In this document: one piece after another, positions 1 to 33,416 of the stretch
How the letters are laid out: each line of letters opens with the position of its first letter
Position numbering within the stretch: position 1 is the first letter of the stretch
Source of the DNA: a virus
DNA: 33,416 nt
Strand: one strand, 5' to 3'
Virus record (IMG/VR): IMGVR_UViG_3300025892_000070
Span: 1-33,416 of that record
The notes under the pieces: generated by a model
The model's input: only the letters and a program-made list of their open reading frames with translations
Told to the model about the DNA's origin: nothing
The model's database searches: none
Program-made: the position numbers and the translations under genes

Positions 1-57
1 GAATTGGATGAAAACGGAATGCTTACAAACGTAACTTGGCCAGAGGAACCAGTATAA
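1..57 (+). CDS. Tail fibre assembly chaperone, C-terminal end only
   Basis: The window opens inside a gene; the 18 residues visible read ELDENGMLTNVTWPEEPV and then stop. This is the conserved ending of the tail assembly chaperone family found throughout the window (compare endings such as LTNVTWPEKPE at 9470 and LTNITWPEEPA at 16515). The stop overlaps the next start as TAATG, the same translational coupling used by other cassettes. Its adhesin partner should lie just upstream, outside the window. The family call rests only on this tail, but the match to its paralogs is close. Confidence 0.8.
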   Translation, partial: ELDENGMLTNVTWPEEPV

Positions 58-641
58 TGGCAATACTAAAGTTAAACAGTCATGAAGTGATTACACAAAG
101 TGGAGACAATCGTCCAGAGTTTGGTGCAAGTGTGCCTGCTGGTTGTATGTTACAACTTAAATCAACTACTAAAACCGACCATTGGGGTGGTTCTGGAGTT
201 TCAAATGGAAATTCAGGTGTTACTCCATATGCTGTAACTGGATTATCTGTTACAATTACTCCAAAGTTTAATACAAGTAAAATATGGTTATTTGCTGATA
301 TTTTTATGGGATTAAATAACTTTGAAGGATACAATTATTATTGGTCAATTTATAGAAGTATTAATGGAGGAACTAGTTCAGCAATTGGAGTAGGTACAGA
401 TAGTAGTGCAACATTTTTTGTTATGGGTGGTCATAATATGTATCCTTCTGGAAGTAGTATTCCTTTTGCGGGAGGTAATTCTAAAAATTATTTAGACAGT
501 CCATCTACAATAGATAGTATAACTTATCAAATAAATGTAGGTGCTGCAGATTCAAATGCTATTTTATATGTTAATAGAAGAGCTAGTGGTGGCAATCCTT
601 GTGGGGTATCAACAATCACAGCAATGGAGATAGCAGCATAA
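57..641 (+). CDS. Short tail adhesin, class A (variant junction)
   Basis: A 194-residue virion protein, probably a host-binding adhesin or tail-fibre tip. The start chosen is the ATG in the TAATG overlap with the chaperone before it; an upstream TTG is possible but unlikely. Residues 1-20 are the N-terminal tag MAILKLNSHEVITQSG, related to the tags at 641, 1203, 7540 and 8509. At about residues 25-31 it has SVPAGCMLQL, a divergent form of the TFPAGH junction. The body is rich in G, S, N, T and aromatic residues, as expected of a beta-sandwich receptor-binding domain. It ends TAMEIAA, the shared last strand. No chaperone follows directly; two more adhesins come first, so this one may use the chaperone at 1781 or the one ending at 57. 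The receptor cannot be told from sequence. Confidence 0.75.
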   Translation: MAILKLNSHEVITQSGDNRPEFGASVPAGCMLQLKSTTKTDHWGGSGVSNGNSGVTPYAVTGLSVTITPKFNTSKIWLFADIFMGLNNFEGYNYYWSIYRSINGGTSSAIGVGTDSSATFFVMGGHNMYPSGSSIPFAGGNSKNYLDSPSTIDSITYQINVGAADSNAILYVNRRASGGNPCGVSTITAMEIAA

Positions 642-1192
642 TGGCAACTCTACAACTCGGAAACAAAACACTGTTTACACAATCTGGAAGTGCTGATCCG
701 GAAATAACATCAAATGTAAATTTGACAAATGCAGATATGTCTAATGCAGATATGTCTAATGCAAATATTAAAACATCATTTAGTTCATTAGATACTTCTG
801 CATCTCAAGGACCAACAACAGATTTAACAAATACAACATTACCTATATTTGCTTGTAGAGCATGGGTACATTTTAACGGCATGTCATATGTTACTGTAGA
901 AAGTGAATCTCATTGTGATATATATGCTTCTGGTAACGTAAGTAAAGTAGTAAGGGTTGGCGTTGGTTTGTATAAAATTTATTTTTTAACCCCAATGCCA
1001 GATACTAATTATTGTGTAACTGGTTCGCATGTTGCTTCAACCAATAGTTATGGTAATGTTGGTGGAATCGGAGGTTACAATGCTACGGCAGGGGGTATTG
1101 AAACAACTTATGTAGGAATAACATACCAATACCACTATAGTAGTTATGGTTTCGTTGACCAAGACCATTTACATATTGCTATTTTCAGATAA
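641..1192 (+). CDS. Short tail adhesin with NADMS repeats
   Basis: A 183-residue protein starting at the ATG of a TAATG overlap. Its tag MATLQLGNKTLFTQSG places it with the class A adhesins, but it lacks the TFPAGH junction. Instead, residues 30-44 hold a pentapeptide-like run, NADMSNADMSNANI, encoded by a 15-base tandem repeat. The C-terminal part has a spaced aromatic and glycine pattern (VGVGLYKIYFLTPMPDTNYCV...VDQDHLHIAIFR) that resembles the H-type lectin-like or fibre-tip beta-sandwich seen in phage proteins, where a YxVxFxTPMPDxNY-like segment is common. It lacks the usual MEI ending. A fibre-tip role is inferred from tag and position. Confidence 0.7.
   Translation: MATLQLGNKTLFTQSGSADPEITSNVNLTNADMSNADMSNANIKTSFSSLDTSASQGPTTDLTNTTLPIFACRAWVHFNGMSYVTVESESHCDIYASGNVSKVVRVGVGLYKIYFLTPMPDTNYCVTGSHVASTNSYGNVGGIGGYNATAGGIETTYVGITYQYHYSSYGFVDQDHLHIAIFR
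729..758 (+). repeat. 15-base tandem repeat, two exact units
   Basis: AATGCAGATATGTCT occurs twice in a row and a third, degenerate unit follows at 759-773. It encodes NADMSNADMS in the adhesin at 641. The unit is a multiple of three, so copy changes keep the frame. Confidence 0.9.
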
Positions 1193-1202
1193 GGTATAAA
1201 AC

Positions 1203-1784
1203 ATGGCAACACTTACGATTGGTGGAAAAACAGTAGTAACGCAGACAGGCACGGATGAGCCTATAATGACAAGTAATGTTGTGATGGATAATGTTAATGT
1301 GAACAATGCATTGGCAAGTGCTACGTTTCCTGCTGGACATATGTTAAGACATTTTTATGATGAATATAATTTTAATGGGTCTCCTGCTACAATCACAACA
1401 ACCGCATCAAATTGGAGCGGTCTACAAATTGATATAATTAATCCTAATACAAGTAATTATTTATTTTTACAAATGTTTATTCCTGACGTATATTGTAGCG
1501 GTTCAAGTAATGGACTTGGAGGTGGTTTTGTTTATAGTACAAATTCTTTTAGTTCAGAATCAATTTTAGGTTCATCTGCTTGGTATTTTAATCAACATTC
1601 ATGGACAAGTTCTGGTTCAAATTTAAATAATACTAGTTTGACTGTTAGAGTATTACATCCAACAAGTAGTAACTATTCAATAAGACCATATTTTCAGGCT
1701 TATAATGCAAGTTTAAGTATAGGACAAGGCAATAGTGGCAATAAGTCTATCGCAACATTATTTGCTATGGAGATACAAGGATGA
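1203..1784 (+). CDS. Short tail adhesin, class A (TFPAGH type)
   Basis: A 193-residue protein, a typical class A adhesin: tag MATLTIGGKTVVTQTG, spacer MTSNVVMDNVNVNNALASA, junction TFPAGHM starting at residue 41, then a variable G/S/N/Y-rich beta body and the last strand LFAMEIQG. The DNA at the junction matches the 14-base core shared by other adhesins. The body is much more AT-rich than the tag and junction, suggesting a different origin. The stop overlaps the chaperone start by ATGA, so the two should be translated together. It is probably a trimeric receptor-binding tip; this is inferred from family resemblance, and the ligand is unknown. Confidence 0.78.
   Translation: MATLTIGGKTVVTQTGTDEPIMTSNVVMDNVNVNNALASATFPAGHMLRHFYDEYNFNGSPATITTTASNWSGLQIDIINPNTSNYLFLQMFIPDVYCSGSSNGLGGGFVYSTNSFSSESILGSSAWYFNQHSWTSSGSNLNNTSLTVRVLHPTSSNYSIRPYFQAYNASLSIGQGNSGNKSIATLFAMEIQG
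1323..1336 (+). repeat. 14-base junction core, copy 1
   Basis: ACGTTTCCTGCTGG encodes TFPAG at codon 41 of the adhesin at 1203. Confidence 0.9.
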
Positions 1785-2439: not shown

Positions 2440-2440
2440 T

Positions 2441-3163
2441 ATGCCCAACGCAAGTTTGACAATAGATGGAACAGAAGTTATCAGCAAAGTAAATGGCTCA
2501 ACTTCTATTCAAATTGACACCGTAGAAAGTAATGATATAAAAAATGCACATGGAAATGTTGTTGGTTTTAGATCTGTTCAAATATTTGACACTGTTGGTA
2601 CATCAACATGGACAAAGCCCGCTGGTGTAAATTATATAAAAGTTTATGTTACTGGCGGAGGAGGTGGCGGTGGTTCTCACAACCAAGATGATGCTCAAGG
2701 AGGTGGTGGAGCAGGGGGAACTACAATTAAATGGATTGATGTACGACAAGTAACAAGCGTATCTGTCACAGTTGGAGTTGGAGGTACACGTTCTATTGGT
2801 AATTCAGGAGGTGGTGGAGGTCCTGGAGGCACATCATCTTTTGGTTCGTATTGCTCTGCCACAGGTGGTGAAGAACCAGAAACTTGGGCAGTTGGTGGAT
2901 ATGGTGGTGTTGCTACTGGAGGAGATATCAATTTGTATGGTAATGCAGGAATATGTGGCAACATAGATGGCGGTGGCAATGAAGAAAGTAGTGGAGTTGG
3001 AGGTGCTTCTTATTGGGGTGGAACAGGCAGAGGAGGTAGTGTTTGGGGTGCAAGGTCTAATCCAAATGGATGGGGATGTGGTGGTTCAGGCACCCATGTA
3101 AGCACTAATAATGAAGGTGCTGATGGATACAAAGGTGCTGTTATTGTAGAGGAATACGTATGA
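2441..3163 (+). CDS. Glycine-rich tail adhesin (polyglycine domain)
   Basis: A 240-residue protein. The tag MPNASLTIDGTEVISKVNG is a distant relative of the class A tags. Around residue 56 it has WTKPAGVNYIKVYVTGGGG, where PAG matches the position of the junction in other adhesins. From residue 71 to near the end it is dominated by glycine runs (seven in a row near residue 73) with inserted short loops, ending GYKGAVIVEEYV. This is the pattern of the phage glycine-rich fibre domain (Gly_rich type), and is reminiscent of adhesins that pack polyglycine helices and present variable loops to the receptor. A chaperone follows with an ATGA overlap. The polyglycine-helix fold is an inference from composition. 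Confidence 0.8.
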   Translation: MPNASLTIDGTEVISKVNGSTSIQIDTVESNDIKNAHGNVVGFRSVQIFDTVGTSTWTKPAGVNYIKVYVTGGGGGGGSHNQDDAQGGGGAGGTTIKWIDVRQVTSVSVTVGVGGTRSIGNSGGGGGPGGTSSFGSYCSATGGEEPETWAVGGYGGVATGGDINLYGNAGICGNIDGGGNEESSGVGGASYWGGTGRGGSVWGARSNPNGWGCGGSGTHVSTNNEGADGYKGAVIVEEYV

Positions 3164-3495
3164 AAAAGGCGCTTATACATTTAGATAAAATTGTACAAGT
3201 TTCAGATTCCACATTTGAAGTTCATTCCAGTATGAAATGGGTAGACTGTCCAGATAATTGCACTACTAAATGGAAATATGAAAATGAACAATTCATTGAA
3301 AATGTTTATACAGATGAAGAAAAATTAAGAGATTTGAGATTAGCAAGAGGAACTAAGTTAAGAAAAACAGATTGGTGGGTTTTACCAGATAGAACTCCAA
3401 CACAAGAGCAATTAAACTATAGACAAGCTTTACGGGATATTACTAACACATATACATCACTTGATGATGTTATTTGGCCGGAGAAACCTGAATAA
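3160..3495 (+). CDS. Tail fibre assembly chaperone (Phage_tail_APC-like)
   Basis: A 111-residue protein. It has the family core in a divergent form: EEKLRDLRLARGTKLRKTDW, then a PDRTPTQEQLNYRQALRDI segment and the end IWPEKPE. It lacks the AAEPLRLLRIERN block that most paralogs share at DNA level, so it belongs to a separate lineage within the family. Its W-V-L-P-D-R-T-P-T segment after TDW is close to the classical tail assembly chaperone form. It is coupled by ATGA to the glycine-rich adhesin and by TAATG to the long fibre downstream, and probably assists one of them. Confidence 0.82.
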   Translation: MKKALIHLDKIVQVSDSTFEVHSSMKWVDCPDNCTTKWKYENEQFIENVYTDEEKLRDLRLARGTKLRKTDWWVLPDRTPTQEQLNYRQALRDITNTYTSLDDVIWPEKPE

Positions 3496-6287
3496 TGCCA
3501 TTCATCGGAGCACCGTCACCTAAAGAATTACAATCCATAGAAACCATTTCTGACCGTAAAACATATACGGGGGATGGCATAAAAACTATTTTTGGCGTTA
3601 GCTATGAATCCAATCATATTAGTGTATTTCAAAACGGCTTAAAACTTATTGAAGGTATTGACTATAATATTGCATCTACTGGTCAGTATATAACATTTGT
3701 TATTGCTCCAGAAAGTGGAGATGTAATTGATTTAGTCGGTGCAAGTGGAGTTACTAATTTAGCACAATCAAGTTATTCAAGAGAAACATTTGTCTCTCTC
3801 GCAAATCAAACATCATTCATTCTTTCAACAAATATAGATGATTCTTTTAGAACAAATGTATATGTAAATGGAATAAGATTAACAGAGACTGATTATACAA
3901 TATATAATTCAAATAATACACTTGAATTTAATTCTGCTCTTGCAGTAGATGATACTGTTGCTATAGAATTAATTAAACCTGGATTTAGAATAGTAGATGG
4001 TACTCTTGATGTTTCAAATCTAACACAAACAAGTTATGCTAGAGAAGCTTTTGAAAATATATCAAACACTTCCAATGTAATATTATCTTCAAATATTGAT
4101 GCTAGTACAAGATTAAATGTCTTTTTTAATGGTGCTAGATTACATGATACATCATTTACCATTGATGTTGCAAATAATAAAGTAACTTTCAATCAAAGTA
4201 TATCAGCTAATGATGTAATAGAATTTGATATATTCAGTCCTGGTTTCAGAACGATTGATAGTGTATCAACAGGAATATCTAATTTTTCTCAATCTAGTTA
4301 TAATGAAGAAGTGTTTCAAGCAATTGAAAACCAAACGGTCATAACACTTGATACAGACATTAATAGTTCTTATTTTATTAATGTATATAATAATGGTATT
4401 CGTTTAAATTTAGAAGATTATACATTTAATTATTCTGCAAATACTATTACATTTACAGAAGCATTATTTGCTAATGATGTTATTACAGTGGACACATTTA
4501 GACCTGGATTTAGAATACAAGGTGTACGCACATTTCTTTCTGACTTAGTTGATGTAAATTCTACTGCTACTGCAAATCAAGTTCTGACTGCAGATGGAAC
4601 TGGTAATTTCTATTTTGCTAATACAGCAGGCGGAAGCGGAAGTGTTTCACTAGCTTCATTCACGGCTAATGGTACAATCACAACAGGAGATACAGTAGCA
4701 TTACGAATAGATAATGGAGAAATTGAAAAGATTGCACATCCCATAATAGCACAATATACAGAAGTTTCACAAACATTAAGTGAAGCAACTACAACTGGTA
4801 CTACATTTTTTGATGTAGATTATGATGAAAACACAAGTTCTGCCATTGTTGCTCAAAGAAGTTCAGTTTCTCCTTTTAATGGATTAGTAAGTATAGGAAC
4901 AGTGACTGAAACCTCAAATACGACCACAAACGGAGAAACCACAAGAGAAGTTGGTTTTAATTGGGGTACACCTGTAGCATGGAACTCAGACAATATTTCT
5001 AACACAGTTGTTGCAATTGATACTGACCAAAATAAAGTAGTTATAACTTATATTAATAATAGTGATGCAATCAACATATATGCAGTAGTTGGAGATATAA
5101 GTGGAAATAGCATCACATTTGGAACTCCTCTTGAACTTTATACAACAAGGTCAAGATTTAATTCAATAGTATATGATACTAATTCAAATAAAATGGTGAT
5201 ATACTTTCAAGATTATAATTCCTTTTATATGTACTATGCAGTATGTACGGTTTCTGGTACAAATATAACACTTGATTCACCAGTGACATTTATAGTAACT
5301 ACGGCATCTAATGCATATTCAACTGCTCTATACATACCCGAATTAAATAAGCATGTTTTACTCTATCATGATACTTCTAATTATGTAACGATAATGATTG
5401 GTGAACTTGCTAATGGAACTATAACATGGGGGTCGGCAGTAACTGTACAATCTGCAGCCGGAATCACACCTATTTGCCGATATGATAGTGTAAATGAAAA
5501 ACTACTTCTTTATATTGGTCAGAATACTGCAGACAGTAACTACCAGTCAGTATTTATTGGTACAATTACCAATAATTCTGTAACTTTTGGTTCTGCTATA
5601 AGAGTTAGTACTGCTAATCCGTTTTCTGGCGTTGCTAATATTTTTGTTCATCATAAAGCCAGCAATAAATTTATAATTGGTGGTGCTGATGGAAATAATA
5701 GTTCTTATCCATATTATAACGTAGTTCAAATAGATGATTCTGCTCCTAATGGATTATCAATTTCAGGTGTTACTGATATAGTTTCTACAGGTTCAACTTA
5801 TTTTGGATTAGGTGGTGGTGTGTATGCGAGTAATTTTGAAAAAATATTTGTAGGTATACGTTTAGATAATACTACCAGACCTAATGTTTGGACATATAAT
5901 CCAGAATATACATCATATGATCTAACAACAACAAATGCGACTAATTATATAGGTATAGCCAAAGATTCTGTAAACAATGGTCAAGTATCTGAAGTATTTT
6001 TAGTAGGTGATATTGCGGACAATCAAACTGGACTTACCGTAAATCAAAATTACTATTTAACTGGAAGTGGTTTGTTAACTACATCATCTACTTCTTATGG
6101 TTTAATTGGCAGAGCAGTATCAGATACATCTATACAACTATTACAAACTACATCAAAATCACTAACAGACCTAAATATAACAGATGGTACTTCTGGTCAA
6201 GTTCTCAAAACATATGGCAATAATGCATTCTATTTTGCTGATGAAGAAAACCTTAATGCAATACTTTATTCAATTGCTCTCGGATAA
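3495..6287 (+). CDS. Long tail fibre with NG repeats and probable beta-propeller
   Basis: A 930-residue virion fibre. It starts MPFIGAPSPKE, a tag also seen at 19944, 24433 and 26092. Residues about 15-345 hold four repeats of roughly 80 residues built on a VYVNGIRLTETDYTI-like unit, each ending near a PGFR motif and followed by a linker such as SSYSRETF; these are shaft-type modules of marine T4-like fibres. A shaft linker (LSDLVDVNSTATANQVLTAD) follows at about 346-385. Residues about 390-815 contain repeating units of the form GxISGNSITFGTP plus YDxxxNKxxI, which suggests a multi-bladed beta-propeller. A YIGIAKDS module at about 817-870 precedes a last shaft unit. The same propeller and YIGIAKDS modules recur in the 1313-residue protein at 26744. 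Confidence 0.82.
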   Translation: MPFIGAPSPKELQSIETISDRKTYTGDGIKTIFGVSYESNHISVFQNGLKLIEGIDYNIASTGQYITFVIAPESGDVIDLVGASGVTNLAQSSYSRETFVSLANQTSFILSTNIDDSFRTNVYVNGIRLTETDYTIYNSNNTLEFNSALAVDDTVAIELIKPGFRIVDGTLDVSNLTQTSYAREAFENISNTSNVILSSNIDASTRLNVFFNGARLHDTSFTIDVANNKVTFNQSISANDVIEFDIFSPGFRTIDSVSTGISNFSQSSYNEEVFQAIENQTVITLDTDINSSYFINVYNNGIRLNLEDYTFNYSANTITFTEALFANDVITVDTFRPGFRIQGVRTFLSDLVDVNSTATANQVLTADGTGNFYFANTAGGSGSVSLASFTANGTITTGDTVALRIDNGEIEKIAHPIIAQYTEVSQTLSEATTTGTTFFDVDYDENTSSAIVAQRSSVSPFNGLVSIGTVTETSNTTTNGETTREVGFNWGTPVAWNSDNISNTVVAIDTDQNKVVITYINNSDAINIYAVVGDISGNSITFGTPLELYTTRSRFNSIVYDTNSNKMVIYFQDYNSFYMYYAVCTVSGTNITLDSPVTFIVTTASNAYSTALYIPELNKHVLLYHDTSNYVTIMIGELANGTITWGSAVTVQSAAGITPICRYDSVNEKLLLYIGQNTADSNYQSVFIGTITNNSVTFGSAIRVSTANPFSGVANIFVHHKASNKFIIGGADGNNSSYPYYNVVQIDDSAPNGLSISGVTDIVSTGSTYFGLGGGVYASNFEKIFVGIRLDNTTRPNVWTYNPEYTSYDLTTTNATNYIGIAKDSVNNGQVSEVFLVGDIADNQTGLTVNQNYYLTGSGLLTTSSTSYGLIGRAVSDTSIQLLQTTSKSLTDLNITDGTSGQVLKTYGNNAFYFADEENLNAILYSIALG

Positions 6288-6295
6288 TTTAAGAC

Positions 6296-6595
6296 ATGGC
6301 TACATTTAAAAGAAAAGCTGCAACTGCAAATACTGCTGGCGTGATCGTTCATACAACACCCGCCGGTATTACTGCATTAATCATTGGTTTAGTTCTAGCA
6401 AACAAAGGTAGTAGTTCTGAAACTGCAGATGTAGATATTGACGGAACATATGTTGTGAAGAATGCACCGATTCCAGTTGGAAGTACACTTTCAGTACTTG
6501 ATGGTAAAATGGTTGTTCAGCAAAATGAAATTATCACAGTCACTGCATCGGCTAACAATGTCATAGATGCCACAATCAGCATACTAGAATTATGA
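6296..6595 (+). CDS. Conserved small virion protein (IPVGSTLSVLDGK type)
   Basis: A 99-residue protein beginning MATFKRKAATANTAGVIVHT. Its alternating hydrophobic pattern, the segment VKNAPIPVGSTLSVLDGKMV and the end IDATISILEL resemble a small structural protein repeatedly found beside tail genes of cyanophages and related marine phages. I recall the family by its motifs but cannot give it an established gene name. It is probably a beta-sandwich that decorates or attaches a fibre. It lies 8 bases after the long fibre and overlaps the next gene by ATGA. Unlike its neighbours it is low in N and G, which suggests a conserved core role and not host binding. Confidence 0.65.
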   Translation: MATFKRKAATANTAGVIVHTTPAGITALIIGLVLANKGSSSETADVDIDGTYVVKNAPIPVGSTLSVLDGKMVVQQNEIITVTASANNVIDATISILEL

Positions 6596-6870
6596 GTGGT
6601 TACTTAGGTTCAAAAAGAGCGGTCAACTTTGCTACAGTACAGTTGCCGATAAAATCAAAAGACATGGAAATCATCACAGAGCATGGTGCAATTGCTCAAA
6701 GAAATTCAATACCCGAAGCAGTAACTATAGATGAGGGTACAAATGTAGCTTTTTATGGTGATGTAACATTTGATTCTTTAGTCACAGTCAATGGAAATTT
6801 AATTGTGATTGGTGGAGACATTGACTTCAAAGGTGGTGCGGACATCGTAGGAAAATTAATCTATCGTTAA
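6592..6870 (+). CDS. Small beta-rich capping/fibre protein
   Basis: A 92-residue protein overlapping the previous gene by ATGA. After MSGYLGSKRAVNFATVQLP comes a section with acidic residues, then stacked short strands (NVAFYGDVTFDSLVTVNGNL, IVIGGDIDFKGGADIVGKLI). The strand-turn pattern matches a short beta-helix or triple-beta spiral cap like those at 2215 and 15328. It may be a separate cap for the long fibre upstream or an accessory shaft piece. Function is inferred from sequence style and neighbours only. Confidence 0.55.
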   Translation: MSGYLGSKRAVNFATVQLPIKSKDMEIITEHGAIAQRNSIPEAVTIDEGTNVAFYGDVTFDSLVTVNGNLIVIGGDIDFKGGADIVGKLIYR

Positions 6871-6872
6871 CT

Positions 6873-7539: not shown

Positions 7540-8142
7540 ATGCCTGAACTTAAAATAAACGGTTACACATTTGCAACTCAAGCTGACGGCAACAATCCTG
7601 TGCTGGCGAGTAATGTTGATTTAGGTAGTGCTACGTTTCCTGCTGGGCATGTTCTACAGGTAAAAGGTGTAATTAGGAATACAGAATGGCAAGGACCAGA
7701 TACAGTAAATGATAATCATACGCTTTTTACAACTGACACTTTCACAACTACTGCACATACCAATACTGCATTTAAAGTAGAAATTACTCCAGCATCAAAT
7801 GCTTCTAAATTTCTTGTTCAATATGCAATTAATATTGGTAACACAAGTACCGGCATAAGTTTAAAATTGCATCGTGGTAATGCTACATCACCAATTTATG
7901 GTTCTAGTGGTAGTAGAACACCACAGAATTCTGGCAAAGAATGGACAGGAGATAATAATCAATCGTCTCAAACTTACTATTCTATACTAGATGAACCTGC
8001 AACTGATAGCACATTAACCTATTATCTTACTTATGTTTATTTTGGGGTTAAGCCTTGGTTTAACACAAATGTAAGCAGAAATGGTGCGGCGTATGATGAT
8101 GCGTATACATCCACTCTTATTGTTATGGAGATATCAGGATGA
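7540..8142 (+). CDS. Short tail adhesin, class A (TFPAGH type)
   Basis: A 200-residue adhesin. The tag MPELKINGYTFATQADGNNP is followed by VLASNVDLGSA and the junction TFPAGHVLQ from residue 32. The variable body (about 45-190) looks like a jelly-roll, with S/T-rich strands and KLHRGNATSPIYG, and the end is TLIVMEISG. The DNA from about 7613 to 7650 matches that of the gene at 8509 with one difference visible, although the bodies are unrelated in detail. It overlaps the chaperone at 8139 by ATGA. It probably forms a host-binding tip; the ligand is unknown. Confidence 0.78.
   Translation: MPELKINGYTFATQADGNNPVLASNVDLGSATFPAGHVLQVKGVIRNTEWQGPDTVNDNHTLFTTDTFTTTAHTNTAFKVEITPASNASKFLVQYAINIGNTSTGISLKLHRGNATSPIYGSSGSRTPQNSGKEWTGDNNQSSQTYYSILDEPATDSTLTYYLTYVYFGVKPWFNTNVSRNGAAYDDAYTSTLIVMEISG
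7633..7646 (+). repeat. 14-base junction core, copy 2
   Basis: ACGTTTCCTGCTGG at codon 32 of the adhesin at 7540; identity with copy 3 extends through about 40 bases with one mismatch. Confidence 0.9.
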
Positions 8143-24432: not shown

Positions 24433-25908
24433 ATGCCGTACATTGGTTCAGCAGTAAAAAGTATAAACACAAGGTCAGCAGTTGACCATCAACAATTTCT
24501 TGGTTCATCTGCAGATACTGTTACAAATCCTGGATACTATACATTCTATGTGAACTATTCACCGGGTAATATATCTGTTTTTGTAGCAGGTAATAATATA
24601 AGTCATACAGACTATACTGCTAATAATGGTACTGATGTAAGAATTTCTACAAGCACATTAACAATTAATCCAGCGGATAATGTAGAAATCATTGGTTATA
24701 ATATACCAACAAGTCAAGTGTTAGAAAGAAGTGATGTGAATATTACTGGTGGAAGTATACGAAATGTTGAAATATCTGATTCTAATTTTCTTGGAACAAA
24801 CAATGTACAATTTTCTACGGGTCTGCCAGTTGTAGATAGTACTGGAAATAATGTTATAAGTGAAAGTGGGGGAGTAGTTACTCTTGCAAATAATGTTGTT
24901 CCTAGCAGTAGTTATATGTTTCGGAACAAGATTATCAATGGTAATTTTGACATTTGGCAACGTGGGACAAGTCAGACAAGTAGTGGGTATGGAAGTGCAG
25001 ATAGGTGGAATAACACTCATTCTGGGCCATCATCTAAAACAGCATCACAAGGAGTATTTGCTTTAGGTCAAACTGATGTTCCAGACAATCCTAAATATTA
25101 TTTAAGGACTGTATTTACAAGTTCAGGTGGGAATGGTGATATTTGTCTAACCCTACAAAATATAGAAGATGTTAAAACATTAGCAGGGCAAACAGCAAAA
25201 TTGAGCTTTTGGGCCAGAACAACAGGTTCCAATAAAAACATTGCAACTGAAATTATTCAATATTTCGGAACTGGTGGTTCTCCATCACCTTCCGTTCTTT
25301 CAATTGGGACAACAACTCACACACTAACAAGTTCGTGGCAGAAATTTACAACTACTGTTTCTATTCCGTCTATTAGTGGAAAGACCATTGGCACAGATGC
25401 TAATGATTACTTAGGTTTAAATTTTTGGTTTGAAGCAGGTGCTAACATAAATTCTTCTAGAACTAATTCATTAGGCAACCAATCTGGAACCTTTGACATT
25501 GCCCAAGTCCAGCTTGAAGAAGGCACAGTTGCGACACCGTTCGAGCATCGGCCTTATGGGTTAGAGTTAAGTTTGTGTCAACGCTACGCACATTTTATAA
25601 GACCAGCATCACAATATGCTGCAATTGGTGTTGGAAGAGCGTGGAGTTCTACACAGGGAAATGCTCATGTGTATCTTCCAGTCAGTATGCGAGGTGCTAT
25701 AGCAATAGAATATTCAAATCTTAGCCATTTTGATTTACCCCCTGCAGGAGAAGGTGTTAATGGACTACACAATGACGGGTCAACTAAACAAACTGTGAAA
25801 GTTGGATGGGTAAGAAATTCAAATGTCACAAGTGGTACTTACTATCAATTAGAGTTTGAAGATTCAAATTGGCAAAATGCTTATCTAGGTTTTACTTCGG
25901 AGTTGTAA
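24433..25908 (+). CDS. Class B adhesin with NG-type N-terminal extension
   Basis: A 491-residue protein. The tag MPYIGSAVKSINTRSAVDHQ and one NG-like unit (NISVFVAGNNISHTDYTANN) take up about residues 1-100, followed by a linker with VNITGGSIRNVEISDSNFLG. The class B module starts MFRNKIINGNFDIWQRGTSQ near residue 162 and closes with QVQLEEGTVATPFEHRPYGL near residues 358-377. The variable end (SLCQRYAHFIRPASQYAAIG...) differs from all others. Thus the fourth class B protein has replaced the usual short tag by a fibre-shaft front. An acidic 59-residue partner follows with no gap. Confidence 0.82.
   Translation: MPYIGSAVKSINTRSAVDHQQFLGSSADTVTNPGYYTFYVNYSPGNISVFVAGNNISHTDYTANNGTDVRISTSTLTINPADNVEIIGYNIPTSQVLERSDVNITGGSIRNVEISDSNFLGTNNVQFSTGLPVVDSTGNNVISESGGVVTLANNVVPSSSYMFRNKIINGNFDIWQRGTSQTSSGYGSADRWNNTHSGPSSKTASQGVFALGQTDVPDNPKYYLRTVFTSSGGNGDICLTLQNIEDVKTLAGQTAKLSFWARTTGSNKNIATEIIQYFGTGGSPSPSVLSIGTTTHTLTSSWQKFTTTVSIPSISGKTIGTDANDYLGLNFWFEAGANINSSRTNSLGNQSGTFDIAQVQLEEGTVATPFEHRPYGLELSLCQRYAHFIRPASQYAAIGVGRAWSSTQGNAHVYLPVSMRGAIAIEYSNLSHFDLPPAGEGVNGLHNDGSTKQTVKVGWVRNSNVTSGTYYQLEFEDSNWQNAYLGFTSEL
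25472..25511 (+). repeat. 40-base repeat at QLEEG border, copy 2
   Basis: Identical by eye to 18106-18145. The protein regions after it are unrelated, so it marks the border between a shared domain and an exchangeable tip. Confidence 0.85.
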
Positions 25909-26088
25909 ATGCAATATAAATTAATCAATGGACCAAATAATAAACCTATTAGTATTATGATAGTAGGTGGTAATGTAAGTTTTCCTTTATCTGAGGATTG
26001 TAATTATTACCAAGAATACTTGGCATGGCTAGCAGAAGGCAATGAACCAGAACCGGCAGATGAACCAATACAACAACATGAGGAATGA
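25909..26088 (+). CDS. Small acidic partner of class B adhesin, 59 residues
   Basis: ATG at 25909 directly follows the stop of the class B adhesin and opens a 59-residue frame ending TGA at 26086-26088, just under a 60-residue cutoff. It reads MQYKLINGPNNKPISIMIVG, a SFPLSEDCNYYQEYLAWLAE segment and GNEPEPADEPIQQHEE. The YQEYLAWLAEGNEPEP core is identical in protein sequence to 19681 and 18435 apart from their neighbours. It completes the four-of-four pairing of class B adhesins with this family. The next fibre gene starts 3 bases later. Confidence 0.78.
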   Translation: MQYKLINGPNNKPISIMIVGGNVSFPLSEDCNYYQEYLAWLAEGNEPEPADEPIQQHEE

Positions 26089-26091
26089 TTA

Positions 26092-26736
26092 ATGCCATTC
26101 ATAGGAAATCAACCCACACAAGAAAAAATACAAGACCATCGTTCATACACTGGTGATGGTGTTAGAACGGCATTTGGTGTTCAGTATGAAGGTGGTGCAG
26201 TACTTGTATTTCAAAATGGTATAAAATTAAAAGAAACCGAAGATTATTTATTAAATGATATAGGCACATTTGTTACTTTTGTAGATGCGCCATTAGCAAA
26301 TGATGTCATAGACCTATATGGAACAAGTGAAATCACAGACCTATCACGTTCAACATATGCCAAAGAAACTTTCACTGCAGCAAAATATCAAACTAACTTT
26401 CAAGTACATAATCCAATATCACCAACAGAACGTATCAATGTTTATGTAAATGGTTTAAGATTATCTGAAGTAGATTTTACAATTGATTATGTAAATAAAA
26501 CTATTATTGTTCCGGAGAGAGACACAGATGATATTGTAATGGTTGAAGTGATCTCACCAGGCTTTAGAAGTTCTATGCATAATGCCAAAAATGAAAAGGC
26601 ATATCATCCAATGTTCTCCACACCGGATGAGATAAATAGTGATATAGTAATACCAGAAGGAGAGAACGCAATGCTAGTTGGTCCCGTTACTCTGAATGGT
26701 GTAATCACTCTCAATGGAACACTCACCGTAGTATAA
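26092..26736 (+). CDS. NG-repeat fibre with C-terminal cap
   Basis: A 214-residue protein: tag MPFIGNQPTQEKIQDHRSYT, then two NG repeats of about 80 residues (VLVFQNGIKLKETEDYLLND and RINVYVNGLRLSEVDFTIDY), the second ending in the PGFR motif, and the cap segment from about residue 180 (NAMLVGPVTLNGVITLNG, then TLTVV). The first repeat is close to the first repeat of the 930-residue fibre (YTGDGIKTIFGV against YTGDGVRTAFGV). It is a compact version of that fibre without propeller. It is likely a shaft or adaptor for the large adhesin downstream. Confidence 0.8.
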   Translation: MPFIGNQPTQEKIQDHRSYTGDGVRTAFGVQYEGGAVLVFQNGIKLKETEDYLLNDIGTFVTFVDAPLANDVIDLYGTSEITDLSRSTYAKETFTAAKYQTNFQVHNPISPTERINVYVNGLRLSEVDFTIDYVNKTIIVPERDTDDIVMVEVISPGFRSSMHNAKNEKAYHPMFSTPDEINSDIVIPEGENAMLVGPVTLNGVITLNGTLTVV

Positions 26737-26743
26737 AAAATAA

Positions 26744-29700
26744 ATGGCAAGCATACTCAAAATTGATGTATTAGAACAAAGATACGCCAATTCAGGATTA
26801 TATCTTTCTGGTAGGATTCACGGTCCTCAGGGAGATATAATTAATAATGGTAGAGTTGTTCTTCCTGGAAACTTTGAAGCAAATACATTCAATGTTCTTG
26901 AAAGTCTAGATGCTAATACAATAAATGCCAATACAATATTTCTCGGTGGAGTCAATGGTAAGCTTGAATTTGACGCAAACACTTCCACATTAAAAATCAA
27001 TAATGCTTCCCTTGCATTACAATCTGATGTCTCTACATTAATTGAAAATAGTTACACTAAGTTTACAGCAAATAGTTCAATTACAGCAGGAGATTTAGTA
27101 AGTTTATTAGATAATGGTAAAATTGAAAAGACAGCAGAAGCGAGTGTTAGAACTAACAGTGTTGGTGCTACTACAACATTTGATAGTAATGCTAGTGACA
27201 ACATATATGTTCAATATGATAAAACTTTAAACAAAGTACTTGTTTCATATGCGGTTGGAAGTTCCTCTGCTTGCTACGGTGTACTTGGAACGGTTAATGC
27301 TGACGGAAGTATAACATTTGGAACACCACTTCAGATTACTTCTCAATATAATTTGATGACTGGTGCGATAGACCCCGTTCAAAATAGAGCAGTTTTTACA
27401 TTTTTAGGTGATGTATATATTGCTGAAATTTCTGGTAACAATCTTATAAATTTACAATCTCCAATAACATTTGATAGTAGTACAGAAAATTATAATGCGA
27501 CAATATATGACCCAAATTCTGGTAAAATAATAATAGCATATTCAGATAGTGCGAGTCCTACAGGTAGAGCAGGTAATGTACTGGCGGTAACTGTTAATGG
27601 AAATTCAATTACATTTGGACAAACAACTGTTTTTGAGGCTTCCAATACAGAAACGATTTCTTTAAGTATAGATAATGATACAAATAAAATAATTATCGGA
27701 TATTCATTAATAGGATCATCCGCTAGATGTGTTATCGCAACTGTATCTGGAACAACAATAACAACAAGCTCACCTGCCGTTGCCTCTCCAGGTACAGCAG
27801 ATTTTGTAAAATTTACTTATGCTTCAAATGGCATAGTTGTTGCTGCTTTCCGTGATAATACTAATAGTAACTATGGTGCATATTCTATAGGACAGATATC
27901 TGGCAACTCAATAACATTTGGAAGTTCTGTTGTTTTCAATTCTGCAACTTCCGTACCAATAGGTTTGAGTTATGATAATGTAAATGAGAGAATTTCAATT
28001 TCATACAATGATTTTGGAAACAGTAATTATGGTACAGTAAAATCCGGTATAATTGAAAACGGAGCTATAACATTTGAAGCTACAGATATATTCAATAGCA
28101 GTGCTACATATGAAGTTTTTAGTGTAGTTGATACCACATACAATAGAATTTTAATAGGATTTAAAAATGGTGCTACTGGTCCTGGTAGAATAAATGTATA
28201 TTCAACGTTTGGAACCGAATATAAAGATAACGTAGATAATTATATTGGAATAGCAAAGGATTCAATTGCTGCTACTCAGGAAGGTTCTGTATTCATAATT
28301 GGAGACATTGCTGATAATCAAACAAGTCTCACAGAAAATCAAATTTATTATGTTGATAAAACAGGAAGCCTAACCACATCCAAAACAGAATATAGTATTG
28401 TAGGTAGAGCGGTATCAAATACGTCAATACAATTACTTGACAATAAACCAACATTACTTACTGATTTAAATATTATAGATGGAACTAATTCACAAGTATT
28501 GACAACATATGGTAATGGTTCTTTTTATTTTGCCGCAGCTAGTGACCCTATAGCAGTATCCAAAACTAATACTACAAATGCCATTCTATCAACAGTTACA
28601 AATGTAAATGATTTTAGATTTGATAGTGATAGTGGTTTTGATGTTGTTGATTTAGGAGCAGGTGCAGTAAAGATTCAAATGAATTCAACTTTCAAAACAT
28701 TGAAAGTTTCTGGTCAGAGTGATTTAGTAGCAACTGGTTTAGATACATTAGAGTTAATAGGTTCTGGAATAACAATTACAACAGATGCTGTAGCTAATCC
28801 TAAAACACTCACATTTACTGGTGCCAGCACTCTTACTGATTTGGGAATAACTGATGGTAGTGCAAATCAAGTATTAATTACAGACGGTTTAGGAAACTAT
28901 TCTTTTGCTAATGCTGCTTCGGGAGGCGCAAGCACACTAACAGATTTAGGCATAGCTGATGGTGAATCAGACCAAGTGCTTACAACAGATGGAAATGGTA
29001 GTTTCTTCTTTGGACATTCATTATCTATATTAAATCAAGATTTGATTGATGGTGGAGAAATTACAGAATTGCGTGATTGTCGTACAGTTATTGATTTAGG
29101 TAGTGTAGATACAAGATTGGGATATGCCGTACCTGAAGGTAGTAAAACTATTCTTTTAGCAAATGATTCTACAATTGTTTCTTCTACAAATGATATAATT
29201 ATATCAGAAACAAATGGATTTGCAAAATTAGAAAATGTCACTATAGATTTAAGTGGAAAAACGGATGCAATTATAGTTCCAAAAGGTACAACAGCACAAA
29301 GACCTAGTTCACCTATTGCTGGAATGATTCGTTATAACACAGAATTAGACCAGTATGAATTATATGATGAAACAACAACAGCTTGGGGAAAACTTGGAGA
29401 TCAACCACCTACAATTTCCAGTATTTCTCCTGCCACAACAGAAACTGTTTCAGGTACAACACAATTTACTGTGGTCGGCACTAATTTTGAATCCACAGGA
29501 ATGACAACTCAATTTGTGAGTACGGTAGATAGTACCGCTGTAAATAGAACTGCATTTATTTTTGATAATAGTGGTCAAATTAGAATCACCTTTGATAACA
29601 CAGATTTTGATGCCGCAAAAGAACCTTACAATTTAATTGTTACAAAATCCAGTGGTTTAAGTGTTACTAAACTAAATGCATTATATGTAGATGAAGCTCC

Positions 29701-30685
29701 TGTTTGGTCACTTACAAGCACAAATATTGCTACTATTTTACCACAAGCAATTACAAATGTCAATATAGATTTACCTACAGCAACAGACCCTGAAGGAGAT
29801 ATAGTAACTTATAGTGGGAGTAATTTACCTAGCGGTTTAAGTATTGATGCAAACACTGGTGATTTGAGTGGTAGTGTTCCTGCAGCAAATACAGAAATAG
29901 AATATACAGTTACTATAAATGCACAAAGCACTGGTAGTGACCCGGGTGCAACACAAAAAACCACAACAAGACAACCCACAATCATTGTGAAACCTGTGAT
30001 TGAAAATTCCTTGATGTTTGATGGGAGCAGCTATTTAAGTAAAAGCACAAGTGATAACAGCACCAATTCAAGTATTAAGACTTGGTCTTTTTGGGTTAAA
30101 AGATCAGTTCTAGGAACAAACTTTTATATGACCGGAGGATTCAAATCGGGGAACTCAAATACTTTTGATATCTACTTTCATACTGATGATACTTTTAGTG
30201 TCCAGTGGGGTGGCAGTTCTGCATTACTTAACAGATCCAGTGCGGTATTTAGAGATACATCTGCGTGGTATCATATATTGGTGCATAAAAACAGCACTTC
30301 ACAAAGTTTTTACATTAATGGCAGTTTGGTTAGTTTAGCAACAACTAACACAACTTCGTCATCAGTGGCATTTGCTGAAAACGGGATGTCTGTCTCTGGT
30401 AATTATGGCAGTTTCATTGGTGGAGGTGGATTTGGAGGAAGCAATAACATAATTGGCTACCTCGCCAACATCCATTTCATAGACGGACAAGCATTGACCC
30501 CAACATCATTCGGTGAAAGTATAAATGGTATCTGGTTGCCGAAAGTTTACAATCCAACAGGTAATGCACTAACAGATTACGGTACAAATGGTTTCCACCT
30601 TACATTTGCACCAAGCACAATTAGCGGCACAACTGTACAAGATATTTCTGGTAGAGGAAATGATTGGACAGCAAATGGTTTTTAA
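26744..30685 (+). CDS. Giant adhesin: propeller, shaft, IPT/TIG, He_PIG and LamG domains
   Basis: A 1313-residue protein, the largest here. Tag MASILKIDVLEQRYANSGLY and short strands fill residues 1-110. About 110-495 is a probable beta-propeller with GxISGNSITFG(S/T)-type units (IGQISGNSITFGSSVVFNSA; NVNERISISYND). YIGIAKDS at about 500 starts a module paralogous to that in the 930-residue fibre. Shaft repeats (TLTDLGITDGSANQVLITDG) lie at about 690-765. A TTAQRPSSPIAGMIRYNTEL segment is near 847. About 888-980 is an IPT/TIG-like Ig domain (PPTISSISPATTETVSG), about 985-1080 a He_PIG-like domain (LPSGLSIDANTGDLSGSVPA), and about 1087-1290 a LamG or concanavalin-like domain (NSLMFDGSSYLSKS, SAWYHILVHKNSTSQSFYIN, GYLANIHFIDGQALTPTSF). 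It is probably a long glycan-binding fibre. Confidence 0.82.
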   Translation: MASILKIDVLEQRYANSGLYLSGRIHGPQGDIINNGRVVLPGNFEANTFNVLESLDANTINANTIFLGGVNGKLEFDANTSTLKINNASLALQSDVSTLIENSYTKFTANSSITAGDLVSLLDNGKIEKTAEASVRTNSVGATTTFDSNASDNIYVQYDKTLNKVLVSYAVGSSSACYGVLGTVNADGSITFGTPLQITSQYNLMTGAIDPVQNRAVFTFLGDVYIAEISGNNLINLQSPITFDSSTENYNATIYDPNSGKIIIAYSDSASPTGRAGNVLAVTVNGNSITFGQTTVFEASNTETISLSIDNDTNKIIIGYSLIGSSARCVIATVSGTTITTSSPAVASPGTADFVKFTYASNGIVVAAFRDNTNSNYGAYSIGQISGNSITFGSSVVFNSATSVPIGLSYDNVNERISISYNDFGNSNYGTVKSGIIENGAITFEATDIFNSSATYEVFSVVDTTYNRILIGFKNGATGPGRINVYSTFGTEYKDNVDNYIGIAKDSIAATQEGSVFIIGDIADNQTSLTENQIYYVDKTGSLTTSKTEYSIVGRAVSNTSIQLLDNKPTLLTDLNIIDGTNSQVLTTYGNGSFYFAAASDPIAVSKTNTTNAILSTVTNVNDFRFDSDSGFDVVDLGAGAVKIQMNSTFKTLKVSGQSDLVATGLDTLELIGSGITITTDAVANPKTLTFTGASTLTDLGITDGSANQVLITDGLGNYSFANAASGGASTLTDLGIADGESDQVLTTDGNGSFFFGHSLSILNQDLIDGGEITELRDCRTVIDLGSVDTRLGYAVPEGSKTILLANDSTIVSSTNDIIISETNGFAKLENVTIDLSGKTDAIIVPKGTTAQRPSSPIAGMIRYNTELDQYELYDETTTAWGKLGDQPPTISSISPATTETVSGTTQFTVVGTNFESTGMTTQFVSTVDSTAVNRTAFIFDNSGQIRITFDNTDFDAAKEPYNLIVTKSSGLSVTKLNALYVDEAPVWSLTSTNIATILPQAITNVNIDLPTATDPEGDIVTYSGSNLPSGLSIDANTGDLSGSVPAANTEIEYTVTINAQSTGSDPGATQKTTTRQPTIIVKPVIENSLMFDGSSYLSKSTSDNSTNSSIKTWSFWVKRSVLGTNFYMTGGFKSGNSNTFDIYFHTDDTFSVQWGGSSALLNRSSAVFRDTSAWYHILVHKNSTSQSFYINGSLVSLATTNTTSSSVAFAENGMSVSGNYGSFIGGGGFGGSNNIIGYLANIHFIDGQALTPTSFGESINGIWLPKVYNPTGNALTDYGTNGFHLTFAPSTISGTTVQDISGRGNDWTANGF

Positions 30686-30699
30686 TAGGATAAATTAAT

Positions 30700-32553
30700 A
30701 TGGCAGTTATAGATCACGTTTTTCCTGATTCACCAACGAATACTTTTGCTACGCTTAATGTTTTAGATGCAGAATCTGCTACACTTAGTAATGGCAATTT
30801 AGCCGCAACAATAAATGCTGGGCCAAACAACTCAACAACAATAATTCCGTCATCCGGTACATGGTATTGGGAAGTTTACATAACTGACCACACAAACATT
30901 TATATGGGAATTCAAAAGATAGAAACTCAAGAAAGCGGATATTCTCAAGATGCAGTGGCAGTTAATAATGTTGGAAATGTCTATTATGATGCTAGTTACC
31001 AAAATAAAGATGCACTGCCTTCAATTGCAACCGGAGATATTATTTCTGTTTTTTGGGATATAGATAATAAAAAAATTTGGTTTGCTCAAAATGGTCAATT
31101 TTATGATGCGACAGGAACAACTCATCCCACTTTAACACTTTCCCAAGTAGCCAGTGGTGTGAACGGATATGATTATAGTTCTAATATTCCAAATAGTGCT
31201 AAACCTTTCTTTGGTAGTTCAGCGACTTCTGCAGGAATTATTTGTAATTTCGGTCAAGACAGTTCTTTTGGCGGAAATAAAACTAGCGGATCAGCTAATG
31301 CTACTGATTCTGGTGGTATAGGAGACTTTTATCATTCAGTACCAACGGGTGCAAAAGCATTATGCACATCAAATATTCAAAGTAACTTAGCTATAGATCC
31401 AGCAGTGGATGATTTGCCGGAAGACTACTTTAAATGTGTAAAATATAACGGTGTTAGCACTGGTGGGGGTAATTTTGCTGTGCCAGTAGGTTTCCAAAGT
31501 GATTTAATTTGGATTAAAAGACGAAATAACGGTAATTCGCATAATCTTTTTGATTCTGTCAGAGGATTTGATAAGTGGATAATATCAGATTTTTCGGGGG
31601 CCGAAAGGAATAACACTTCTAACAATAGTGGTAATTCTAAAATATCAACAGTCAATAGCAGTGGGTTTACAGTACACGATAATCATAATGCGGAAGTCAA
31701 TGACGGTACTGCTGGGTCAGCTAGTCAATATATCAGTTGGAATTGGAAAGCCGGTGGTGCGCCAAGTGGATCAAACATCTATATGAAGAATGATGTAGGA
31801 TATACTAGTTCAACGTCAGATAAAGCAACTGTATTTGGTAACGCTAGTAACTATACGATTACTCCAGCATCAGCAAGTATTAATACAAAAGCGGGTTTTA
31901 GTATAATTAAGTATCTTTCTCCAGACGATTCGGGAGGAGCAGTTTCTACTGCTACTGTGCCGCACGGTCTTAGCGCTGCACCAGATTTTATAATTTGCAA
32001 GAATTTAGACACTTCATACAACTGGGATATTTATCATAGCAGTGTTAATTATTCTGGAATTTTTACAACTGCAGCGATTAACTCAAGAAACGCATTCGGC
32101 ACAATTAACTCTAATATTTTTACAACTAAAGACACATTTACGCATCATGATGATGATGAGTACATAGCATATTGTTTTACAAGTATTCCCGGCTACTCCG
32201 CATTTGGTTCGTATACTGGTACTAATCATCAAGATAAAGGTTATCGTTCATTAGATTTTAAGCCTAGTTTCATTTTGATTAAAGATGTAACTTCGAGTGG
32301 TAATTGGGCTATGTTTGATAATCAAAGAGGCCCGATTAATCCAATAGATCATTGTTTATTAGCTGATTCTGCTGCTGTTGAAACTACCAGCACTACTAGT
32401 AGTGGTCAAAATCAAATCGACTTTTTAAGCAACGGGTTTTTTATTCGTTGCGATAATGCGAATAGCAAAATGGGGAATGTAACCGGAAATACTTACCTCT
32501 ACGCAGCCTTTGCGGAAATGCCCTTCAAATACTCAGCAACGAACGCCAGGTAA
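30700..32553 (+). CDS. SPRY-domain virion protein with tandem DUF7483-like domains
   Basis: A 617-residue protein. Residues about 50-180 resemble a SPRY domain: TWYWEVYITDHTNIYMGIQK, DIISVFWDIDNKKIWFAQNG. Then follow two related beta domains: about 240-390 with FQSDLIWIKRRNNGNSHNLF and DSVRGFDKWIISDF; and about 395-610 with APDFIICKNLDTSYNWDIYH, PSFILIKDVTSSGNWAMFDN and the end YLYAAFAEMPFKYSATNAR. This layout, often placed behind a LamG fibre, is known from cyanophage structural genes. It likely works with the 1313-residue protein upstream, 14 bases away. Names of the latter domains are from memory of motifs. Confidence 0.78.
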   Translation: MAVIDHVFPDSPTNTFATLNVLDAESATLSNGNLAATINAGPNNSTTIIPSSGTWYWEVYITDHTNIYMGIQKIETQESGYSQDAVAVNNVGNVYYDASYQNKDALPSIATGDIISVFWDIDNKKIWFAQNGQFYDATGTTHPTLTLSQVASGVNGYDYSSNIPNSAKPFFGSSATSAGIICNFGQDSSFGGNKTSGSANATDSGGIGDFYHSVPTGAKALCTSNIQSNLAIDPAVDDLPEDYFKCVKYNGVSTGGGNFAVPVGFQSDLIWIKRRNNGNSHNLFDSVRGFDKWIISDFSGAERNNTSNNSGNSKISTVNSSGFTVHDNHNAEVNDGTAGSASQYISWNWKAGGAPSGSNIYMKNDVGYTSSTSDKATVFGNASNYTITPASASINTKAGFSIIKYLSPDDSGGAVSTATVPHGLSAAPDFIICKNLDTSYNWDIYHSSVNYSGIFTTAAINSRNAFGTINSNIFTTKDTFTHHDDDEYIAYCFTSIPGYSAFGSYTGTNHQDKGYRSLDFKPSFILIKDVTSSGNWAMFDNQRGPINPIDHCLLADSAAVETTSTTSSGQNQIDFLSNGFFIRCDNANSKMGNVTGNTYLYAAFAEMPFKYSATNAR

Positions 32554-32791
32554 TTATAATTATCAATGGAGAAAACAATATGGCAGAACAATTGAAATTG
32601 AAAACACAATTTTTGAAAACACAAACTTTTTTACAGCAGTAAATAAAGTTATAAATCATGATGAAGTTTCTATTGCCGATGCATATAGAATAAATAAGAT
32701 CATTAAAAAAACTTAAAGAATTCAAGATGGAATTTTGGTCGCTGATATCAACAAACTAGAATTAATATTTGATTTTTCTAACATAGAATAA
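32510..32791 (+). pseudogene. Possible decayed small gene after the SPRY protein
   Basis: One frame is open from an ATG at 32510 (inside the previous gene) to TAA at 32714-32716, and reads YNYQWRKQYGRTIEIENTIF and INHDEVSIADAYRINKIIKK. After that single stop the same frame continues RIQDGILVADINKLELIFDF up to TAA at 32789-32791. The text looks protein-like on both sides of the stop, as if a partner gene lost its start and gained a stop codon. Alternative: a real 68-residue gene, or nothing. The region 32554-32796 shows no other feature, and it lacks the ATAAATA element at the expected spacing. Confidence 0.25.
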
Positions 32792-32796
32792 AATAA

Positions 32797-33336
32797 ATGC
32801 CAGAAGTTATAAAATTTTCCAAAGGTACTGTAGCAGAACACAATAACTTTACGGGAGAGAATGGTGAAATCACATTGATTTGTGATGATAGCCCGAATCG
32901 TAAAGTTACTGGCATCATACGTTTACATGACGGTCAGACTGTTGGTGGTGTTCCTTTTGGTGGTAGTCAATTGCTAAATGATTTACATGATGTAAATACT
33001 GCTAGTGCTACACTTGGTACTGTATTAACTGCTGGTGCTAATGACACGTTTTATTTTAATTCAGTAGTAACTAATCTAGCTGGATTGACTGATGTAATTT
33101 CTGCTAACACTGCAGCAAATGGTACAATACTTACAGCAGATGGTAATGGTGGTTTTAAGTTTGATACAATAGCAAAAGGTGGTGGAAACAATCAAGTGTT
33201 TTTTGAAAATGATACAACAATCACAGATGATTATACAATCTCAGCAGGTAAGAATGCAATGACTGCTGGACCAATAACAATCGCAAACAATGCAACTGTA
33301 GTTATACCAGTTGGTTCAACTTGGACAATAGTGTAA
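32797..33336 (+). CDS. Mtd_N-like fibre with shaft repeats and C-terminal cap
   Basis: A 179-residue protein. Residues 5-55 (IKFSKGTVAEHNNFTGENGE, ITLICDD, GIIRLHDGQTVGGVPF) are the Mtd_N-like start shared with 23723. Two shaft repeats follow (LLNDLHDVNTASATLGTVLT and LAGLTDVISANTAANGTILT, each ending in a G..F(Y/K)F strand). The end is the cap: GGNNQVFFENDTTITDDYTI, NAMTAGPIT and PVGSTWTIV, closely matching the end of the fibre at 19944. It has start, shaft and cap but no binding body, so it is likely a minimal fibre or adaptor. Confidence 0.78.
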   Translation: MPEVIKFSKGTVAEHNNFTGENGEITLICDDSPNRKVTGIIRLHDGQTVGGVPFGGSQLLNDLHDVNTASATLGTVLTAGANDTFYFNSVVTNLAGLTDVISANTAANGTILTADGNGGFKFDTIAKGGGNNQVFFENDTTITDDYTISAGKNAMTAGPITIANNATVVIPVGSTWTIV

Positions 33337-33337
33337 T

Positions 33338-33416
33338 ATGGCAGAAAGTATATTAAAAACGGACGAAATTCGTCTATTAAATAATCAAGTGTTGATGAGT
33401 GATGGTGCGTTGACTG
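33338..33416 (+). CDS. Class A adhesin, N-terminal part only (runs off the window)
   Basis: ATG at 33338, one base after the previous stop. The 26 residues visible read MAESILKTDEIRLLNNQVLM followed by SDGALT. They match the tags at 21060 (SIIKTDEIRRLNDTVLMSDG) and 22007 (DLNDNVIMSDGALG), so a TFPAGH junction is expected a few codons beyond the window end. The adhesin array therefore continues downstream. Confidence 0.75.
   Translation, partial: MAESILKTDEIRLLNNQVLMSDGALT

Follow-up and report, generated by a model that had tools for sequence, protein, structure and literature searches.

Introduction

In T-even phages, short conserved motifs reportedly flank the variable receptor-binding segments, and recombination at these motifs is said to change specificity, an observation credited to Tetart and colleagues in 1998. 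Here, we describe how a marine T4-like (Kyanoviridae-related) myovirus that has not been cultivated arranges its tail adhesin genes at a host-recognition locus, found in IMG/VR record IMGVR_UViG_3300025892_000070. This record is a linear fragment of 33,416 nucleotides (nt), and the whole of it is called the window. The locus is an array in which shaft or cap genes are followed by slots, each with a short adhesin and usually its own APC-type chaperone. The adhesins termed class A carry a 14-18-nt DNA motif, the hinge (ACGTTTCCTGCTGGGCAT), just past their N-terminal stub. As in the T-even phages, the breaks of replaced segments fall at conserved motifs. Unlike there, an exchange usually covers parts of two genes, the adhesin body together with the chaperone N-domain, many slots of one genome take part, and the silent sites of the 5′ anchor are frozen.

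Marine T4-like phages carry host recognition clusters (HRCs), with a mean size of 44.6 kb for pelagimyophages and 34.2 kb for cyanomyophages (PMC7029224). Like an HRC, this locus is a large and hypervariable island of tail-fibre genes set within the structural region; unlike the HRCs described, its roughly 57 kb are almost purely adhesion genes, 16 of them chaperone genes, and exchange was mapped to fixed break points (PMC7029224). HRCs lie between VrlC and the neck gene gp14; this array is downstream of gp23 and of baseplate and fibre genes, with VrlC and gp14 left without a profile assignment. An earlier note on the window had taken its scale, with a modular grammar, as the strongest candidate for an undescribed system; given the HRC sizes, scale alone does not support this. 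The locus belongs to a known kind, of which it is a large and pure example, and size alone is no discovery. The new part is the mode of variation, with cartridges that extend over two genes, numerous slots and an anchor whose silent sites are frozen.

The unrelated Alteromonas phages A5, V22 and P24 have a common module of tail fibre and chaperone (PMC10579305). As in that module, a fibre and its cognate chaperone are transferred together between phage families, but those phages share whole genes, whereas here the boundaries fall inside both genes. The layout of the chaperones is like that of gp25 of cyanophage Pam3 and Mu Tfa, with a variable N-domain, which binds the fibre in gp25, and a conserved C-terminal helical domain; these were studied as one fibre-chaperone pair, and joint exchange of N-domain and body was not described in the part of the source consulted (PMC9608196). 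P-SSP7 (PSSP7_037-041) and Melnitz have homologous short adhesins with a C-terminal MEIAA-type strand, as found here, and the Melnitz adhesin likewise has an APC partner. Both have few copies only, and the DNA hinge is absent or partial in them (CCTGCTGG in one Melnitz copy). In the cultured cyanopodovirus P-SSP7 (L123), PSSP7_037-041 form a short tandem run of homologous adhesins with a chaperone-like gene, the C-half of which resembles that of an unrelated contig (G004, see below). Finally, the adsorption complex of RaK2 is a comparable multi-fibre system that combines about ten distinct tail-fibre proteins; these are mostly of the depolymerase type, and a chaperone-paired array of small adhesins is not described in the part of the source consulted (PMC10253068).

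Replacement of adhesin bodies

The window matches, base for base, bases 60077-93492 of IMGVR_UViG_3300025892_000012 (G001) and is exactly the final 33,416 bp of this 93-kb T4-like myovirus contig. Contigs of the same phage from other datasets were collinear and 99.4-100% identical outside the replaced bodies. Two adjoining cassettes were replaced between contig G025 and contigs G026 and G027. DNA identity was about 100% through the stub and the motif TTTCCTGCTGG, then dropped to background, and recovered at the point within the chaperone gene where the ..ETDW or AAEPLRLLR box is encoded. A third break starting at the hinge was found at 19,444 of G025. Most of the clear replacements start at the hinge, 3′ of the stub, and they usually stop in the next gene, at the LRLLRxER..LL..DW box of the chaperone, which is a conserved helix. 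Over 8 contig pairs, not all of them independent, the 5′ breaks at 14 class A boundaries were at most 26 nt from the hinge, and the 3′ breaks checked were 5-102 nt before the DW codons of the chaperone. These alignments indicate that the adhesin body and the chaperone N-domain usually travel as a unit while the slot-specific stub and the chaperone C-domain stay.

The earlier note had suggested checking whether cassettes are gained, lost and permuted between collinear flanks. Cassette content does change between flanks that are 99-100% identical, but no whole-cassette gain or loss was seen in near-identical contigs, in which the order and number of slots are fixed. Bodies are replaced outright in a near-identical backbone with the order kept. 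The contig comparisons show that the predicted receptor-binding genes turn over by replacement of the adhesin body while the array order stays fixed. Overall, we consider it likely (roughly 75%) that this is a marine T4-like adhesin locus in which bodies are replaced as cartridges, from the hinge mostly to the chaperone box, in an array of fixed order.

Alignment of contigs L093 and G028, a related phage pair, shows a cartridge that has moved to a different slot. Before the hinge, L093 aligns with slot 1 of G028 (97.3%), past the hinge it matches the body and chaperone N-half of G028 slot 2 (96.8%), and within the chaperone box it returns to slot 1 (95.7%). For the proteins of this moved cartridge, the identities were 0.99 for the body and 0.97 for the chaperone N-half, compared to 0.26 for the stub and 0.41 for the chaperone C-half. 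Permutation, in the sense of the earlier note's check, is seen as a body moved between slots in this pair but not as a change of slot order in near-identical contigs. One homologous cassette also occurs in G004, where the body (60%) and the chaperone N-half are alike and the stub and C-half unlike. G004 was considered as a possible relative and rejected; it is an unrelated tailed-phage contig with one cassette. In a separate related array (L083, 7337-9528), a sulfotransferase-like gene, judged by eye from the start of its sequence, lies between adhesin genes.

The hinge motif

The window contains 7 matches to the hinge with at most 1 mismatch, compared to 0 in shuffles, and eight G001 cassettes carry FPAG. 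Where copies have the same amino acid, the hinge codons were identical in 0.92 of pairs, compared to 0.49 expected from codon usage. The corresponding values were 0.53 (expected 0.39) for the 8 codons upstream of the hinge, 0.53 (0.50) for the 20 codons downstream, 0.51 (0.47) for the chaperone box and 0.46 (0.48) for the chaperone C-terminus. The rare codons ACG (5%) and GGG (5.5%) recur in the hinge. A DNA scan of IMG/VR for ACGTTTCCTGCTGGNCAT returned 42 stretches, counting repeats of the same phage. In most of these, the motif is read in the same frame within an adhesin gene and an APC chaperone gene comes next, and the set includes phages that have just one cassette and a stub of unrelated sequence. 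A synonymous control made of the commoner codons of the genome, ACATTTCCAGCAGGNCAT, returned 3 stretches and 0 adhesin cassettes, and the hinge had one chance-like match in bacterial and archaeal genomes, outside any adhesin. The hinge is frozen at silent positions across different phages. It also served as a search key, which pulled adhesin cassettes from unannotated viral contigs.

We tentatively suggest, at less than even odds, that the 15-nt hinge is a dedicated DNA recombination anchor kept by use at the nucleotide level and that cartridges circulate, cassette-like, between slots and unrelated marine phages. Another explanation is that protein function alone, or recent duplication of the adhesins, has kept the hinge and that breaks fall there since only identical DNA recombines. 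TFPAG is conserved in the protein too, and homologous recombination needs identity in any case. However, silent sites on either side of the hinge and within the chaperones come close to what codon usage predicts, and the copies are therefore old; the hinge alone is frozen. The rare codons of the hinge, and a synonymous pattern that retrieves no cassettes, also do not fit, and we regard this explanation as rather unlikely.

Several observations weigh against exchange at a dedicated anchor or against the cartridge as a general unit. The invariance of the hinge may come from homogenisation or repeated recombination instead of an anchor function, although such an origin also fits replacement at the hinge. 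Replacements within long fibre genes do not use the hinge, a hinge-less cassette swap was found at 56826-57404 of G001, and one replacement stops at the adhesin stop codon. L093-2518 and G025-15957 have a common body but different chaperone N-halves, and strict linkage of the two parts was rejected as too strong a claim. The contigs are metagenomic, and some variants are known from one contig. Also, the model of the class A body is weak (predicted local distance difference test, pLDDT, 57); it is all-beta, its best Foldseek neighbours include TNF-like lectins, and the lectin-like fold is best taken as a lead. As a separate observation, a segment of the SPRY/DUF7483 fibre (31454-31761) was replaced between G001 and G025 without a hinge, and a second mode of exchange therefore exists.

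Other explanations

On another view, the locus is a common T4-like host recognition cluster whose gene set is stable, and the apparent swaps come from misassembly or from a mixture of strains. Contigs of different samples are collinear and 99.8-100% identical over most of the array, and a big fibre cluster is normal in marine T4-like phages (PMC7029224). However, G027 (IMGVR_UViG_3300025892_000050), which is from the same sample as G001, overlaps the end of that contig by exactly 127 bp at 100% identity. An overlap of this length points to an assembly k-mer well above the 20 bp of the hinge and, therefore, a false join at the hinge is unlikely in that sample. Moreover, G026 and G027 are from different IMG datasets and give the same variant, with 100% identity over 3,088 bp, and the same break pattern is found in other phage lineages. 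We consider a stable cluster improbable.

A phase-variable switch would express the cassettes singly, either through inversion or through a site-specific recombinase dedicated to the hinge. In its favour, the hinge is conserved as DNA and has a length that fits a recombinase or nuclease site, and exchanges start there. However, its repeats are direct, not inverted, one weak pair made up the inverted repeats of the window, and no recombinase gene was recognized among the families and open reading frames (ORFs) read. The cassettes are coupled without promoter enrichment: the count of the late promoter TATAAATA was not above chance, and scans for sigma-70 promoters and terminators were at chance level. 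Slot order is also constant in near-identical contigs, and we find a switch very improbable. Diversification by a diversity-generating retroelement can be dismissed as scarcely credible, since the variants are unrelated bodies rather than adenine-directed point changes and no reverse transcriptase (RVT_1) was found in three contigs of the phage (157 kb including overlap, of an incomplete genome), even though two window genes have Mtd-type N-terminal domains, one of them weakly.

Chaperones

The whole array has 16 clear APC-type chaperone genes, compared to 0-2 in 12 cultured phages that are related or of similar kind. The PF16778 (Phage_tail_APC) profile matched 13 copies in G001 and 3 in G025, all above the curated cut-off. 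In the alignment, the N-half is variable, with a weak XkdW match, and the C-half is the APC domain. Hence, the two-domain Tfa/Pam3-type layout is present, with a variable N-domain and a conserved helical C-domain. The AlphaFold2 model of the chaperone at 21656-22003 (pLDDT 86.5) has a long helix at residues 36-71; a fold search with the chaperone found no significant structure, and XkdW was the best weak match.

Gene content of the window

The window has 45 non-overlapping ORFs of at least 60 aa, all on the + strand, as are all the genes listed here. The earlier note had counted about 48 collinear genes, and its order and single strand stand while the number is lower. Almost all of the genes encode tail-adhesion proteins, no enzyme or replication families were found among the window proteins scanned, and there are no tRNAs in the window. 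The note's picture of a large repertoire of adhesin cassettes with a repeated grammar in a T4-like marine phage, nearly all genes being fibres, adhesins or helpers with no enzyme or replication gene, agrees with this domain content. Its four class B adhesins, two collar fibres, C1q-like tip and several shaft proteins were all recovered, and array genes are indeed truncated at both window ends.

At its 5′ end, the window contains the final 57 nt of an APC-type chaperone gene (1-57; full gene 59759-60133 of G001). Two short adhesins follow, at 57-641 (stub MAILKLNSHEVITQSG..., C-terminus TAMEIAA) and at 641-1192, and the body of the second has a homologue in another slot in contig L058. The class A adhesin at 1203-1784 has the hinge ACGTTTCCTGCTGG at 1323-1336 and is followed by a chaperone at 1781-2215 (PF16778). 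Six further class A adhesins are complete: 7540-8142 (hinge 7633-7646), 8509-9111 (hinge 8602-8615; roughly 34% identity with one of the tail fibre proteins of P-SSP7), 15555-16148 (hinge 15645-15658, 1 mismatch), 16517-17080 (hinge 16664-16677), 21060-21659 (hinge 21147-21160) and 22007-22600 (hinge 22091-22104). The body of the last is 60% identical to the single-copy adhesin of the unrelated phage contig. Their chaperones are, in the same order, at 8139-8516 (PF16778, 3e-8), 9108-9470, 16159-16515, 17080-17466, 21656-22003 (weak XkdW-like N-half, APC C-half) and 22597-22950, and the N-half alone of the last is common to G004. With those at 3160-3495 and 14861-15289 (7e-11), nine APC-type chaperone genes are complete within the window. 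At its 3′ end, the window breaks off within the stub of one more class A adhesin (33338-33416), the body of which differs between G025 and G026/G027.

The chaperone at 3160-3495 follows a glycine-rich adhesin (2441-3163, PF21722), and the one at 14861-15289 follows two adhesins with Tail Collar domains, at 13599-14213 (E 9e-17) and 14221-14853 (E 8e-20). The class B adhesins, marked by FRNKIING, are at 10227-11246, 17436-18431 (phrog_4492, 2e-80), 18638-19684 and 24433-25908, the last fused to a shaft; a small partner of the first is at 11243-11479. They share DNA blocks around FRNKIING and near the C-terminal EGTVATPFEHR (17544-17651, 18736-18789 and 24901-25008), which are possibly exchange anchors of their own. 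A repeat at 25999-26081, in a gap without a called gene (25908-26092), is like the end of a class B partner gene and is perhaps a gene remnant.

Small shaft-cap proteins are encoded at 2215-2439 (GPVSV..VTVNG motif) and 6592-6870, and shaft proteins at 3495-6287 (930 aa), 11476-11970 (with repeats), 19944-21059 (ending in a GPITV cap), 26092-26736 (with cap) and 32797-33336 (with cap and a weak Mtd_N match). The remaining proteins are a C1q-domain adhesin (22940-23521, E 1e-16), an Mtd_N-domain protein (23723-24418, 9e-8), a 1313-aa fibre with a He_PIG Ig domain (26744-30685) and the 617-aa SPRY and DUF7483 fibre (30700-32553), the one with the segment replaced in G025.

Extent and genome context

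With longer contigs retrieved, the 33-kb window, which the earlier note described as a 33-kb array, proved to be only the middle of a block of about 57 kb that runs from about 52.0 kb in G001 to about 15.9 kb in IMGVR_UViG_3300025892_000050. The array has about 84 genes on one strand, of which the G001 part contributes 63 and the G027 part about 21, and a single reverse-strand ORF in G027 overlaps coding sequence and was taken as spurious. On the G001 side, + strand coding makes up 97.6% of the array, and 16 of the 62 neighbouring gene pairs have 4-nt overlaps.

Upstream of the window, G001 has a T4-like structural module of large terminase, tail sheath, tube, portal, protease, scaffold and gp23. 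Several of these identities were taken from gene order and sequence without profiles, that of the portal from gene order only; the terminase matched Pfam Terminase_6, and T4-type terminase, sheath, portal and gp23 capsid occur in one genome. The gp23 homologue is at most 56% identical to those of cyanophages such as S-CAM9, of S-8S55 and of Methylophilales phage Melnitz. After gp23 come giant baseplate and fibre proteins and then a gp9/10-like baseplate-fibre connector that ends at 51,965, and the array begins directly after it. Searched as nucleotides against cultured phages, the window's first 25 kb had no match, and further adhesin searches found none.

Past the end of the array in G027 (L109/L108), translations read by eye resemble purine-synthesis genes (purL, purQ, purM and a purE-like gene) and iron-sulphur assembly genes, and recombination-like genes also begin there. 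In G008 (L048-L050), the baseplate-side genes upstream of the terminase include a small cluster on the reverse strand, at about 9.3-11.4 kb in the reversed contig, whose products look like membrane proteins, and one of these resembles a TolQ/ExbB-type protein.

Implications

Exchange would proceed through phage homologous recombination, anchored by two short sequences, namely the hinge and the chaperone box. The class A body may be a trimeric TNF/C1q-like lectin head, and the stub would dock on the shaft. The chaperone N-domain would be the part matched to its adhesin. Swapping it along with the body would keep a matched pair together, because the N-domain of Pam3 gp25 binds the fibre while its conserved helical C-domain trimerises (PMC9608196). 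Dense, coupled genes with no on/off switch would lead to many adhesins being made together. Virions probably carry several adhesin kinds, since tight gene packing suggests joint expression and no switch was found.

Phages could, in this way, renew their receptor specificity without breaking assembly, with the head and the likely matched part of the chaperone swapped and the stub and the generic part kept. This concerns abundant, mostly uncultured ocean phages, and it makes two questions directly testable: whether DNA anchors are maintained for receptor swapping and whether virions carry mixed sets of adhesins.

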